Assembly (NCBI GenBank): GCA_937897085.1
Contig: CALCOR010000033.1
Location: 1-5,134, forward strand
Direction of reading: 5' to 3'
Source: an uncultured euryarchaeote
GTDB lineage: Archaea; Thermoplasmatota; Poseidoniia; Poseidoniales; Thalassarchaeaceae
Length of the DNA stretch: 5,134 nucleotides
Part shown: positions 1 through 5,134 of the stretch, in pieces
How positions within the stretch are numbered: the stretch's first letter is position 1
Layout: every line of letters begins with the position of its first letter
Program-made: the position numbers and the translations under genes
Notes under the pieces: model-generated
Databases searched by the model: none
The model's input: only the letters and a program-made list of their open reading frames with translations
What the model was told of the DNA's origin: nothing

Positions 1-903
1 ATCCAATGCCCATGAGCCGGCGAAGTCGCCCGGTCGCATCAGCCAGTTCCGGTCGCGCTGACCCCTGCCCTCAGTCTGGGACTTGGTGAACAGGCGTTCT
101 CCGGCCCCCGCTCCGCTACTGAGCAGTCGAGTATTGGTCGAGTCGACCTTCTCGGTCCACTCGGGCGTTCGTCCACCCCACGGAATCCAAGCTGCGAACG
201 CGGTCAGCCGTTCGTCCCCACCGAGCCTCGCGCACGCGAGCGTGCGTGTTGCGAATCCCATCCGGCGCCAGCGGGTCTGTGCGAGTTCCCCGCGCGCCGT
301 GTCAGCGTGCACGAGCAGCACCACCCCTCCTTCGGCGAGCACATCCGGGCGGGCAACGAGCGCGGCGAGCAGCATACCTGTCCAACCCGACTCTCCAGCA
401 AGATCGAGCAAGCCAGCATCTTCGAGAGGCCCCAGCCTGCCCGACTCCGTGACCCCAGGGCTTCCCCTCGACTCGCCGCCGTCGAGATAGGGGGTGTTCC
501 AGCAGATGACGTCGAACGGTCCGGCCACGCCGTCTGGCCAGGAACCATCCTCGCCTATTCCCGCTTCGACCACGTCGACTCTCTCTTCGACCCCGGCACG
601 TGCCGCGTTTCCTCGACTCGCTGCAACCGCCAGCGGGTTGACGTCGCAGGCGACCACGCGCATTCCGCGCAGCGCGGCGGCGATGGCTGCCGCTCCGCAA
701 CCGCAACCGATCTCGAGCAGGCGCGCTTCAGGGCGGATTCTCAGTTCAGCGAGCGCCGCGTCGAGCAGTTCAGTGTCCTCTCGCGGCGGGTACACTGTCG
801 CTGGAACAGCCACTCGGCAAGGTGGAGCGTCGGCCCCTCTGAAAACCAACTCAATTGCAGCACGGCTCTGCAATTCCAGTTCACGGGATTGCTGGTCGCC
901 CAT
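1..903 (-). CDS. HemK/PrmC-like methyltransferase fused to biotin-protein ligase domain (C-terminus beyond window)
   Basis: This reading frame is open from the ATG at 903 to the window edge (301 codons, no stop). Residues about 37-235 form a class I SAM-dependent methyltransferase of the HemK/PrmC/Mtq2 type. They show an N-terminal VYPPREDTELL, like the V/M-YEPAEDSxLL of archaeal HemK-related proteins, the SAM-binding loop EIGCGCG at 64-70, the acidic ACDVNP at 85-90, and the catalytic-type motif NTPY at 136-139. Known family members methylate the glutamine of the GGQ motif in release factors; here that substrate is inferred. After a linker, residues 252-301 read as the start of a BirA-type catalytic domain: VDSTN at 253-257 and QTEGRGQRDRNW at 276-287, matching the STN and QxxGRGRRGRxW signatures of enzymes that make biotinyl-AMP and load biotin on carboxylase carrier proteins. 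No ATG, GTG or TTG codon lies in frame between Met215 and Met289, so the ligase is unlikely to be separately started. The frame is open further upstream, with a possible GTG at 1089, but the family alignment favours the ATG at 903. No good Shine-Dalgarno precedes it, so the start is not certain. Confidence 0.85.
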   Translation of the reverse strand, partial: MGDQQSRELELQSRAAIELVFRGADAPPCRVAVPATVYPPREDTELLDAALAELRIRPEARLLEIGCGCGAAAIAAALRGMRVVACDVNPLAVAASRGNAARAGVEERVDVVEAGIGEDGSWPDGVAGPFDVICWNTPYLDGGESRGSPGVTESGRLGPLEDAGLLDLAGESGWTGMLLAALVARPDVLAEGGVVLLVHADTARGELAQTRWRRMGFATRTLACARLGGDERLTAFAAWIPWGGRTPEWTEKVDSTNTRLLSSGAGAGERLFTKSQTEGRGQRDRNWLMRPGDFAGSWALD

Positions 904-1098: not shown

Positions 1099-1172
1099 GG
1101 GCCTGTAGCTCAGCCAGGTAGAGCGGCCGGCTTTTAACCGGCATGTCGCGGGTTCGAACCCTGCCGGGCCCG
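1099..1172 (+). tRNA. tRNA-Lys (anticodon UUU)
   Basis: A complete cloverleaf can be folded by hand. The acceptor stem is GGGCCTG at 1099-1105 with CGGGCCC at 1165-1171 (one T-G pair), and the discriminator base is G1172. The D stem is GCTC/GAGC at 1108-1111 and 1121-1124, with GG in the loop. The anticodon stem is GCCGG/CCGGC at 1126-1130 and 1138-1142, with loop CTTTTAA carrying TTT at 1133-1135. The variable loop has five bases. The T stem is GCGGG/CCTGC around TTCGAAC at 1153-1159. No intron is present. CCA is not fully encoded: CC then T follows the discriminator, so CCA would be added after transcription, as is common in archaea. The gene lies 54 bases before rpoH on the same strand with no visible promoter between, so co-transcription with the RNA polymerase operon is possible. 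Confidence 0.96.
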
Positions 1173-1186
1173 CCTACCCAGGCGGG
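1169..1186 (+). repeat. Perfect hairpin overlapping the tRNA 3' end
   Basis: CCCGCC at 1169-1174 pairs perfectly with GGCGGG at 1181-1186 around the loop TACCCA. The left arm includes the last three acceptor-stem bases and the discriminator of the tRNA, so in a precursor RNA this hairpin and the mature acceptor stem cannot form completely at the same time. There is no T-tract after it. It could affect 3' processing or read-through into rpoH, or be incidental. Confidence 0.4.
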
Positions 1187-1226: not shown

Positions 1227-1814
1227 ATGGCCATCAAATCATCAACGAAAAGACGTCTGATCGACCTCGGTGTCGACGCCGACATCGCGAGCAAGTTGGC
1301 AGACGATGCCAACATGGACCAGATCAAGATGATGAGTACCAAGGAGATCGCCGCGAAGTCCGAACTCAAAGAGGGTAGTGATGGGTTCGAACACTTGATG
1401 GGCATCATTCGAGAGCAATCCGCCTCCAAGAAACGCAGTCGTTCGAAGCGTGTCACCCTTCCCACCAAGGTGACTGACGACGACGACATCCCCATGGGTG
1501 ACACCAGATTCAACGTCCTGAACCACGAGTTGGTTCCTCATCACGAGCTTGTTCCCGAGGATGAGGAAAAGGAAGCCCTGGCACCTTGGAATCTAACACA
1601 GGAGGACGCTTACGGAGATGAACGACTGGCAAAGGAACTGCTGCCGAAGATTCTGATCACCGACCCCGCGGTGCAGGTGCTCAAGGAGGTCCACGAACAG
1701 GAAGACGAGGAACTCAGAGCCGGCTGGCTGGCCAACCGTGTTGTCCGCATCATCAGGCGAAGCCCGTCAGCGGGCAAACATCTCGCTTATCGGTTGGTGG
1801 TCGAGGGGACCTGA
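1227..1814 (+). CDS. rpoH: DNA-directed RNA polymerase subunit H (Rpo5), with N-terminal extension
   Basis: This encodes the archaeal homologue of the C-terminal domain of eukaryotic RPB5, a subunit of the polymerase jaw on the downstream-DNA side. From the ATG at 1227 the protein has 195 residues. The conserved core is residues 95-193: FNVLNHELVPHHELVPEDE at 95-113, ELLPKILITDPAVQVL at 137-152, and RVVRIIRRSPSAGKHLAYRLVV at 171-192 (family pattern LPxIxxxDPvv...IxRxSxTAGxxxxYRlv). A typical archaeal RpoH is only about 80 residues and begins near this core. Here residues 1-94 form an extra region: a helical part (about 5-63, including LIDLGVDADIASKLADD), a basic patch SKKRSRSKR at 67-75, then an acidic DDDD. 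The core also has two small insertions, around 126-136 and 153-170. An in-frame ATG at 1197 would add ten glycine-rich residues and is less likely; the frame also runs back into the tRNA. A G-rich tract just before 1227 may act as a Shine-Dalgarno. It is first in an operon with rpoB. Confidence 0.93.
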   Translation: MAIKSSTKRRLIDLGVDADIASKLADDANMDQIKMMSTKEIAAKSELKEGSDGFEHLMGIIREQSASKKRSRSKRVTLPTKVTDDDDIPMGDTRFNVLNHELVPHHELVPEDEEKEALAPWNLTQEDAYGDERLAKELLPKILITDPAVQVLKEVHEQEDEELRAGWLANRVVRIIRRSPSAGKHLAYRLVVEGT

Positions 1815-1827: not shown

Positions 1828-4800
1828 ATGAAGGAGATTATCGAGACATTCTTTCGCGAGCGAAGTCTGGTGAATCACCAGATTGCATCATACGATGACT
1901 GCGTACCTAACGGGGACAACAAGATGGCACGCACTGAACAGATTGTGCGCAACATCCGCATCGGAACGGACGAGTTGGTCGAGGACGATGAGGGTGGGCT
2001 AATCAAATTGGACGTTCTAGACAATGAGATCACCATCCGCATGAAGAACATCGAAGTCGGCAACCCGACAATCCGTGAGGCAAATGGGGCAGAGCATCCG
2101 GCCAGTCCGATGGAGTGCCGCCTGCGAAAACTGACCTACATGAGCCCGGTCTTCCTAGACTTCACCATTCATCGTGACGACCACTTCGACGCTTCTGGTG
2201 AGCTAATCCCGATCTTTGAGGATAGGGTGCAGGTCGGCAACCTCCCGATCATGGTGCGCAGCCGTCGCTGCAACATGCACCCCTCGCACATCGACCTGAA
2301 GCGCAACCTCTCACCTAGCACCAGCGAAGAGGACCGCGAGCACTACATGCGGATGCTGCAGTCCAAGGGCGAGGATCAGTATGACCCCGGTGGTTACTTC
2401 ATCATCAACGGGACTGAGCGCGTCCTCATATCGATGGAGGATCTTGCTCCGAACCGTGTCACCGTCGAGATGAACAAGCGCTACACGCGCAAGACCGAGG
2501 TAGCCAAGATCTTCAGCCAGCGAGACGGTGTGCGCAAGCCCCTCACCGTGGAGAAGCGCAAGGATGGCCTGCTGATGGTCAAGATCAGCAGTGCCGGTGC
2601 CCAGGTGATTCCCGTCGTGCTGCTCATGCGAGCGCTTGGAATCGACACTGATGAGAAGATATTCTCCGCCATTTCGGCTCACACTGACGCGTTCAAGTAT
2701 GTCGTTGCCAACATCAACCATGTTCGCGATCCGGACACCAAGGACGCTTACGGAGTCGAGACGCAGGAAGAGGCGCTCAACTGGCTGGAGAAGAAGTTCG
2801 CGGCCGGACAACAGAAGGAATACCGACAGCAGCGAGTTCAGAACCTGCTCGACAAGGAGTTGCTGCCGCACCTCGGGACACTTGAGGAGAACCGCAACAA
2901 GAAGGCGATCTTCCTTGGCCGCATCGTGCGCCAGGTGCTCGAGATGGCCACCACTGACAAGGATCCCAACGACAAGGATCACTATGCAAACAAGCGCGTG
3001 CGCCTTGCAGGCGACCTCATCGAGGATTTGTTCCGGGTCAGCCTGCAGCAACTCGCCCGCGACCTCAAGTACCAACTGGAGCGGCATCACAACCGCAAGC
3101 GGGAGTTGAAGATCGGTAGTTGTCTACGACCTGATGTCCTGACTTCGAAGATCATGCACGCACTCGCCACAGGGAACTGGGTCGGCGGGAGAACCGGCGT
3201 GAGCCAGTTGCTCGATCGCACCACGTTCATCTCCGCACTCTCGCACATGCGCCGCGTCACCAGCCCACTGGTACGCAGCCAGCCGCACTTCGAAGCTCGT
3301 GACCTCCACCCGACGCAGTGGGGGCGCCTCTGCCCCAACGAGACGCCTGAAGGGCAGAACTGCGGTCTGGTGAAGAACGCCGCCCAGATGATCGACGTAT
3401 CCGAGGCCGTGTCCGAGGATGATGTCAAGCAACTGCTCGAAGAAACTGGTGTGGTGGAACCCGAGGACTGGTCCGAGGGCGCACGCGTGCACGTGAACGG
3501 CGACATCTTCGGACTCCACAAGGATCCACATAAGCTGGTTGCTCACTTCAAGCGTAGTCGCAGGCGTGGTCGAATTCGACCCGAGGTCACCATCCGCCAC
3601 GACGTCATCAACCGTGACATCTTCATCAACACAGACAAGGGACGCATCCTGCGCCCCCTGCTGGTGATTGACAACGGCAGCCTCGTCCTCACCAAGGAAC
3701 ATCTCGAGGGTCTGCGTGCCCGCGAGGTCACTTTCCGTGATCTGCTCAACGACGGTGTCGTCGAATGGGTCGACGCCGAGGAGGAGGAGGATCTACTCAT
3801 CGCGCCGCGGCCGTACGTGCTGCCGCGCCGCTCACCGAAATTCAATCGGCCAATCAACCCCGACAATGTCGAGTGGCTCAATCTCGGTAAGGAGGATATC
3901 AAGAAGGCCGATCTTCGCGTACGCGTCCAGATGCCGAACGGCGAGTGGAAAGAGGAACGCTTCAAAGAGCCGCTGTCCTACTATCAGGAGGATTTCGACG
4001 TGTTGCGTCGCACGGAGAAGCGCGCTAAAGACGTCCTCGTCTACACCCACGTCGAGATTGACCCCCAACTCATCTTGGGCGTGTGCGCCAGCCTGGTTCC
4101 CTACCCGGAGCACAACTCGACTCCGAGAGTCACTGGTGGCACTGCCATGGTCAAGCAGAGCCTCGGCCTGAGTTCCTCCAACTACCGCCTGCGCCCGGAC
4201 ACTCGTTCTCACATGCTGCACTACTCGCAACGCTCGGTGGTCGGCACACAGTCGATGTCCACTACCAACTCAATCCATCGCCCCGGTGGGCAGAACTACA
4301 TCGTCGCGGTTCTCACTCATCAGGGCTACAACATGCAGGATGCGGTCATCATGAATCGCGCTTCTGTAGAACGTGCTCTCGGCCGCTCGACATTCACTCG
4401 CACCTACACTGCTGAGCGCCGCCGCTATCCCGGCGGGCAGGTAGAGGAGATCGAGATTCCTGGAACCGGTCCTGACGAGGTGAAGGGGCGCAAGGAGAAT
4501 TACGAGTATGACCATCTGGAGTTCGATGGCCTGCCCATTCCTGAGACATTCCTGACGGGCTCCCCCGATGACCACGCCAGCGTGATGGTGGGCAAGACCA
4601 GTCCGCCTCGCTTCCTGGAAGAAGGCCATGGTGCCTTCATGATGGGACAGTATCGCCAAGAGTCGAGCATGAACGTCCGTCATGGGGAACGGGGTCACAT
4701 CGACCACGTGTTCGTCACCGAGAGCCTCGACTCGGGCAGGTTGGTGCGCATCACTCTGCGAACAGATCGTATTCCCGAACTCGGAGACAAGTTCGCCAGT

Positions 4801-5134
4801 CGCCACGGTCAGAAGGGCGTCGTCGGCCGCTTGGTAGCGACCGAGGACATGCCGTTCACCGTAGACGGCGTGGTCCCGGATCTGATAATCAATCCACACG
4901 CGATTCCCAGCCGCATGACTGTCGCCCACGTCCTCGAGATGATCGGTGGCAAGGTCGGCTCGATGGAGGGCCGTATCGTCGACGGCACCGCATTCTCAGG
5001 GGAGAAGGAAGAGTCACTGCGCGAAGGTCTGCTGCGCGGGGGTTTCAACCACACCGGCAGGGAGCAGATGATCAACGGCGAGACCGGCGAGACCTATCCT
5101 GCGAACATCTTCGTCGGCTGCATCTACTACCAGA
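1828..5134 (+). CDS. rpoB: DNA-directed RNA polymerase subunit B (Rpo2), unsplit, C-terminus beyond window
   Basis: This is the second-largest, catalytic subunit of archaeal RNA polymerase, homologous to RPB2 and bacterial beta. The window holds 1102 codons plus one base, with no stop. Landmarks in order: EDQYDPGGYFIINGTERVL at about 184-202; WVGGRTGVSQLLDR at 451-464 and LSHMRRVTSPLVRSQPHFEARDL near 471-493; CPNETPEGQNCGLVKN at 502-517; VHVNGDIFG at 554-562; VDAEEEED at 648-655; THVEIDPQLILGV at 740-752; HNSTPRVTGGTAMVKQSLG at 762-780; GYNMQDAVI at 833-841; ELGDKFASRHGQKGVVGR near 984-1001; and PDLIINPHAIPSRMTVAH near 1017-1034. The frame ends at IYYQ, which in relatives begins the hybrid-binding/clamp part, so perhaps 90-120 residues including the usual zinc site are missing. 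The chain is continuous where many euryarchaea split it into B'' and B' (near 555). Oddities are an extra ~70 residues between 660 and 738 and substitutions in two active-site motifs. It follows rpoH by 13 bases; rpoA1 would be expected next. Confidence 0.98.
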   Translation, partial: MKEIIETFFRERSLVNHQIASYDDCVPNGDNKMARTEQIVRNIRIGTDELVEDDEGGLIKLDVLDNEITIRMKNIEVGNPTIREANGAEHPASPMECRLRKLTYMSPVFLDFTIHRDDHFDASGELIPIFEDRVQVGNLPIMVRSRRCNMHPSHIDLKRNLSPSTSEEDREHYMRMLQSKGEDQYDPGGYFIINGTERVLISMEDLAPNRVTVEMNKRYTRKTEVAKIFSQRDGVRKPLTVEKRKDGLLMVKISSAGAQVIPVVLLMRALGIDTDEKIFSAISAHTDAFKYVVANINHVRDPDTKDAYGVETQEEALNWLEKKFAAGQQKEYRQQRVQNLLDKELLPHLGTLEENRNKKAIFLGRIVRQVLEMATTDKDPNDKDHYANKRVRLAGDLIEDLFRVSLQQLARDLKYQLERHHNRKRELKIGSCLRPDVLTSKIMHALATGNWVGGRTGVSQLLDRTTFISALSHMRRVTSPLVRSQPHFEARDLHPTQWGRLCPNETPEGQNCGLVKNAAQMIDVSEAVSEDDVKQLLEETGVVEPEDWSEGARVHVNGDIFGLHKDPHKLVAHFKRSRRRGRIRPEVTIRHDVINRDIFINTDKGRILRPLLVIDNGSLVLTKEHLEGLRAREVTFRDLLNDGVVEWVDAEEEEDLLIAPRPYVLPRRSPKFNRPINPDNVEWLNLGKEDIKKADLRVRVQMPNGEWKEERFKEPLSYYQEDFDVLRRTEKRAKDVLVYTHVEIDPQLILGVCASLVPYPEHNSTPRVTGGTAMVKQSLGLSSSNYRLRPDTRSHMLHYSQRSVVGTQSMSTTNSIHRPGGQNYIVAVLTHQGYNMQDAVIMNRASVERALGRSTFTRTYTAERRRYPGGQVEEIEIPGTGPDEVKGRKENYEYDHLEFDGLPIPETFLTGSPDDHASVMVGKTSPPRFLEEGHGAFMMGQYRQESSMNVRHGERGHIDHVFVTESLDSGRLVRITLRTDRIPELGDKFASRHGQKGVVGRLVATEDMPFTVDGVVPDLIINPHAIPSRMTVAHVLEMIGGKVGSMEGRIVDGTAFSGEKEESLREGLLRGGFNHTGREQMINGETGETYPANIFVGCIYYQ

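Follow-up and report, generated by a model that had tools for sequence, protein, structure and literature searches.

Does the long open frame at the left end of the window, a stretch of 5,134 nucleotides from an uncultured archaeon of the order Poseidoniales that makes up the entire contig C33 (CALCOR010000033.1) of assembly G000 (GCA_937897085.1; 376 contigs), encode a single protein in which a HemK-type methyltransferase is joined to a biotin-protein ligase (BPL), and what would such a protein do? The original prediction, made from the window alone, had read the frame as a HemK/Mtq2-like methyltransferase continuing into a BirA-type ligase. That reading holds: the fusion is real and is a new domain architecture joining two known enzyme kinds. 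As to function, the sequences make it likely that the gene specifies one 502-residue bifunctional housekeeping enzyme with two independent predicted activities. At the sequence level this is supported by a single reading frame, conserved active-site motifs, purifying selection, occurrence in two families and the presence of both presumed substrates in the genome.

Reconstruction of the fusion gene

From its ATG at base 903 the frame runs for 301 codons and reaches base 1 of the window without a stop. This start is supported by the same-genus relative G001, in which a stop lies 16 codons ahead of the equivalent ATG with no start codon in between. Leftward extension, which had been proposed as a check, recovers the rest of the ligase at the start of contig C25 of the same assembly, the first 35 bases of which agree with the reverse complement of window bases 35 to 1 at 34 of 35 positions. 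When C33 and C25 are joined, the frame comprises 502 amino acids and aligns ungapped over 502 residues to the full-length relatives P0121 and P0122, at 84% in each case; the alignment to P0123 (78%) needs two gap openings. Past the ligase, C25 carries a convergent gene whose protein begins MTARRAMAGGG, and the single-contig genome G025 shows the order MAGGG-protein gene (convergent), fusion, rpoH, rpoB, the likeness to the C25 gene being judged by eye. Assemblies are recurrently broken in or near the locus (C33/C25 of G000, G007, G039, and G282).

Separate translation of the ligase finds no obvious entry point. Past codon 200, common start codons occur in frame at codons 215, 289, and 300, so that, as originally claimed, no ATG, GTG, or TTG lies between codons 215 and 289, and the ligase domain is left without a common start of its own. 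The whole-chain structural model (predicted template modeling score [pTM], 0.92) contains almost no linker and predicts a fixed packing of the two domains, which would be held rigidly against each other. Both halves are under purifying selection, as judged from the ratio of nonsynonymous to synonymous substitution rates (4 of 5 pairs; the remaining pair has N bases).

Distribution and origin

The window protein, used as a query, matched in 37 of 40 genomes (the window's own and 39 relatives). A search with the full-length protein L010 as the query covered 391 genomes of the phylum, of which 143 besides the window's own belong to two families, f1 and f2. The search for the same two-domain architecture in related genomes, also suggested with the original prediction, was productive here: in 127 of these 143 genomes, a single frame of 400 amino acids or more is matched across both domains. 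Eight others gave matches of another kind (G039, G191, G235, G237, G285, G311, G388, and G392). Fission of the gene in G039 was considered and rejected, as the ligase piece extends to the contig end. The match in G235 (C2:134180-135514; L057) crosses six TGA and one TAG codon and may be a copy in decay, a frameshifted copy, or the product of errors in the sequence.

The last eight genomes of f1 and f2 gave no match at all, and the same eight lack a match to the ligase family. The adjoining rpoH is also missing in six of them and lies near a contig end in two (from base 121 in G007, about 0.5 kb from the end in G282), for which reason we read these cases as assembly gaps; loss of the gene is not the simplest reading. 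A biotin carrier with the EAMKM motif is kept in G013, G126, G204, G217, and G384, while the one carrier locus read in each of G007, G264, and G282 is of the lipoyl type. At the level of individual loci, 76 of the 80 named ones carry both motifs in one frame, including four (L184, L221, L222, and L233) with AG-numbers, which we take to denote single-cell genomes. Of the other four, L164 is cut by its contig (it is 97% identical to P0122 over residues 1 to 305), and L189, L241, and L242 fail the motif test. A protein search with L010 returned 712 matches, the best 120 of which carry PF03099. A Poseidoniales-type fusion is also held by L169 (JAOMAZ010000008.1), which is labeled Deltaproteobacteria bacterium AH-558-G13 and perhaps comes from a mislabeled or mixed genome.

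The fusion was absent from all 23 genomes of other families that were examined. In 15 of the 23, both domains occur as separate genes, on different contigs in 14 and, in G164, on a shared contig with about 257 kb between them. Six genomes of family f15 have the methyltransferase only, G046 has a ligase and weak methyltransferase matches, and G335 has weak methyltransferase matches only. The suggestion that two adjacent genes had fused is therefore unsupported, since the separate genes are not neighbors in any of the 15 genomes that have both, and an origin out of a conserved gene pair was dropped. Quick trees were built from 34 of the 89 fused proteins together with either 16 separate methyltransferases or 7 separate ligases. 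All fused domains fall on one side of a branch, with Shimodaira-Hasegawa-like approximate likelihood ratio test values of 100 in the methyltransferase tree and 98 in the ligase tree. The trees are unrooted, contain few outgroup rows, and have some long branches; a single origin is consistent with them, though unproven. Probably, a single fusion event took place on the stem lineage of the order.

The methyltransferase half

Modeled and structure-searched alone, the N-terminal 240 residues adopt a methyltransferase fold. In the 89 fused proteins, the glutamate and the first and second glycines of the S-adenosylmethionine (SAM)-binding motif are invariant, as are the asparagine, proline, and tyrosine of the catalytic N-x-P-Y motif (89/89 each). 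The second place of the latter is occupied by L in 62, T in 23, P in 2, I in 1, and M in 1; the unfused methyltransferases of f15 have N-L-P-Y as well. The fused proteins carry about 42 residues before the VY motif (median of 88), where the separate genes examined have a short N terminus. The score against the HemK2/Mtq2 model TIGR00537 is 66.5 bits for the window, 65.4 for P0122, and 66.2 for P0121, the curated cut-off being 87, and we therefore file this half as HemK2/PrmC-like and not as a member of TIGR00537. All 14 control genomes matched this model, only 4 of them above the cut-off. Against the PrmC model TIGR03534, the scores are 55 to 62 bits at a cut-off of 199. A search with PADLOC gave one similarity in the methyltransferase region, to mad2 (E value, 9.4e-14).

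The window's own genome has one TIGR00537 match. Among the 39 genomes with a match (own included), the best match is the fused frame in 36, and in the assemblies of the other three (G007, G013, and G039) the fusion locus is missing or cut, so that no alternative HemK2 candidate is visible. The own genome (C126) encodes release factor aRF1 with its GGQ motif, as do all 12 relatives read.

The ligase half

The BPL fold is present in the predicted model, and a VIA-align search with the whole chain returned ligases alone. Scores against PF03099 (gathering threshold, 21 bits) are 35.8 bits for P0122 and 32.9 for P0121, and the C25 piece of the window's own genome, which has one PF03099 match, scores 22.4 and 20.3 bits. 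The equivalog-domain cut-off of TIGR00121 (83.1 bits) is exceeded by L004, L010, and L024 (85 to 90 bits), with L008 and L012 remaining below. WPND is found in 89 of 89 fused proteins and the catalytic-type lysine in 88 of 89. No helix-turn-helix DNA-binding family was found among the Pfam matches of P0122 and P0121. The own genome encodes a carrier with the EAMKM motif (C157).

The Q in the ATP/biotin loop of the window corresponds to R118 of Escherichia coli BirA. At this place, the 89 fused proteins have R in 57, Q in 23, Y in 7, and H in 2; the 76 named loci have R in 68, Q in 5, Y in 2, and M in 1; and all seven separate ligases read have R. The BirA mutant R118G is the promiscuous enzyme of BioID (PMC8825456), and it is conceivable that a loop of the Q type makes a natural leaky ligase.

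Predicted function of the fusion

In the reading that we consider likely, the N-terminal domain would bind SAM and methylate, through N-x-P-Y, the glutamine of the aRF1 GGQ motif, and the C-terminal domain would form biotinyl-5'-AMP and transfer biotin to the EAMKM lysine of carboxylase carriers. Both activities and their substrates are predicted from motifs and gene content. The fusion has probably been kept for coexpression, fixed stoichiometry, or mutual stabilization, and not for coupled catalysis; a coupling of release-factor maturation with biotin loading was one of two options raised with the original prediction.

Several observations weigh against this assignment. For the methyltransferase, the TIGR00537 cut-off was reached in none of the 40 genomes (own included), and the canonical N-P-P-Y occurs in only 2 of the 89 fused proteins, the second residue being mostly L or T and not P. 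For the ligase, the same-genus proteins P0122 (54.2 bits) and P0121 (59.9 bits) stay below the TIGR00121 cut-off, and the loop of the window reads GRGQRDR. Also, a further, weak match to PF03099 occurs in G022 (C15:2297-2620, a frame of 556 amino acids, 22.2 bits), perhaps a lipoate-type ligase. Finally, Trm112, which eukaryotic HEMK2 needs, is undetected in the Poseidoniales examined.

Alternatively, the methyltransferase might have left release-factor work for a role in biotin metabolism, such as methylation of the carrier or SAM sensing on behalf of the ligase. Its failure to reach the HemK2 cut-off in any of the genomes searched and a partner domain that belongs to biotin metabolism would both fit. 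We nevertheless regard such a change of trade as unlikely, as the SAM and N-x-P-Y motifs have stayed invariant and the fused frame is the best TIGR00537 match in nearly every genome with one, no other HemK2 candidate being there while aRF1 keeps its GGQ.

The Trm112 result invites a different proposal, namely, that the ligase domain, possibly together with the helix and hairpin at the N terminus, took over the role of Trm112 by covering the hydrophobic face of HemK2 and holding its SAM-binding shape while retaining ligase activity. Without Trm112, HEMK2 shows no SAM binding and no activity (PMC5372719). In the Poseidoniales, Trm112 was not detected: 6 of the 40 genomes (own included) gave only weak zinc-ribbon matches, the own genome being 85% complete and 22 of the 40 searched genomes at least 90% complete. 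Of the four weak matches that were read, those in the own genome, L032, and L035 look TFB-like by sequence and L037 a membrane protein; the remaining two, in G013 and G023, match at the same positions of the model and lie in similarly long frames. The Trm112 model PF03966 weakly matches archaeal TFB-like zinc ribbons (e.g., L036, L032, and L035), a source of false Trm112 calls. Genuine Trm112 genes (about 55 to 80 amino acids) are present in other families of the phylum, and the fixed packing in the whole-chain model would fit the proposal. However, no genuine Trm112 is among the matches listed for families f3 and f15 either, and their methyltransferases are unfused, so that loss of Trm112 does not by itself account for the fusion. 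Certain other archaeal orders also are without Trm112 (PMC5372719) and, together with f3 and f15, indicate that its loss needs no substitute. Replacement of Trm112 is thus improbable; if true, translation termination would have acquired a metabolic enzyme as an indispensable structural component of its machinery.

The fusion could also be neutral, a single chance fixation that has been tolerated although the one chain brings no benefit. We know of no functional link between the two reactions, and streamlined genomes readily fuse genes. Yet there is no clear split in the 143 genomes of f1 and f2 (of the eight with pieces, only G039 was inspected), the genes are not neighbors in the 15 other-family genomes that have both, and the model leaves almost no linker between the domains, all of which makes neutrality quite improbable. 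An assembly artefact, be it a chimeric contig or an overlooked stop, has a negligible likelihood: the window does terminate within the gene and the C25 overlap has its one mismatch, but that overlap otherwise agrees and the two domains share one frame in 127 of 143 genomes, including the single-contig G025, and in P0121 to P0123.

Features of the window

The coordinates of the fusion gene and of its neighbors are collected in Table 1.

Table 1. Features of the window, in window coordinates
Feature	Position	Strand	Remarks
Fusion gene, codons 1-301 of 502	1..903	-	Open frame; ATG 903; leaves contig at base 1 and resumes at G000:C25 base 36 (locus L001, 36-641)
HemK2/PrmC-type SAM methyltransferase domain, codons 1-240	184..903	-	
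N-terminal extension (helix and two strands), codons 1-35	799..903	-	DSSP of the model
SAM-binding motif EIGCGCG, codons 64-70	694..714	-	Conservation in 89 fused proteins
Catalytic motif N-T-P-Y (NTPY), codons 136-139	487..498	-	Conservation in 89 fused proteins
Start of biotin-protein ligase domain, codons 241-301	1..183	-	Model matches ligases from residue 239 or 241 onward
Ligase motif VDSTN, codons 253-257	133-147	-	
Ligase ATP/biotin loop GRGQRDRNW, codons 279-287	43..69	-	Q at the place of E. coli BirA R118
tRNA-Lys (TTT), between fusion and rpoH	1099..1174	+	Divergent from the fusion
rpoH, conserved neighbor	1227..1814	+	PF01191, E 4.8e-16; same order in G025
rpoB, open at window end	1828..5134	+	Six RNA_pol_Rpb2 domains

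Novelty and comparison with known systems

No paper describing a HemK-BPL fusion was found in the open-licence literature searched, subscription journals lying outside the search. A survey of archaeal fusions (PMC11237513) has no passage on HemK or release factors in its main text; its supplement may list the fusion. The original claim that the arrangement is undescribed stands for the papers searched, but one source of annotation already gives relatives the name "biotin-(acetyl-CoA carboxylase) ligase/methylase of polypeptide subunit release factors". Other sources name relatives for one half: BirA-like protein, release factor glutamine methyltransferase, or ribosomal protein L11 methyltransferase. 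Our findings bear on annotations of the latter kind.

In wider terms, two widespread enzymes that both modify proteins but otherwise seem to have little in common have persisted as a single chain across two families of marine archaea, and cells with the fusion would coexpress release-factor maturation and biotin loading. The fusion offers a clean system in which to ask what replaces Trm112 in archaea without one and whether a fusion can hold two unconnected housekeeping activities without catalytic coupling.

Compared with HemK2/Mtq2/N6AMT1 (KMT9) and its partner Trm112, the fused methyltransferase scores below the TIGR00537 cut-off, carries an N-terminal extension, has N-T-P-Y in place of N-P-P-Y, is joined to a ligase, and has no Trm112 detected beside it in the Poseidoniales examined. 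It also differs from bacterial PrmC (HemK), as the TIGR03534 scores indicate, and its predicted substrate is aRF1. The monofunctional BPL of Pyrococcus horikoshii differs from the fused ligase in that the latter stands behind a methyltransferase and, in the window protein, has GRGQRDR where the former has GRGRRGR. BPL domains occur alone, behind a DNA-binding domain as in BirA, and behind diverse eukaryotic N termini (PMC3199775), and in Methanocella, the BPL is joined to PycA (PMC11237513). BirA and the Methanocella PycA-BPL resemble the fusion in combining a BPL and another domain in one chain. Their partner domains, however, belong to biotin biology, whereas the partner in the Poseidoniales fusion is a methyltransferase of the translation type.
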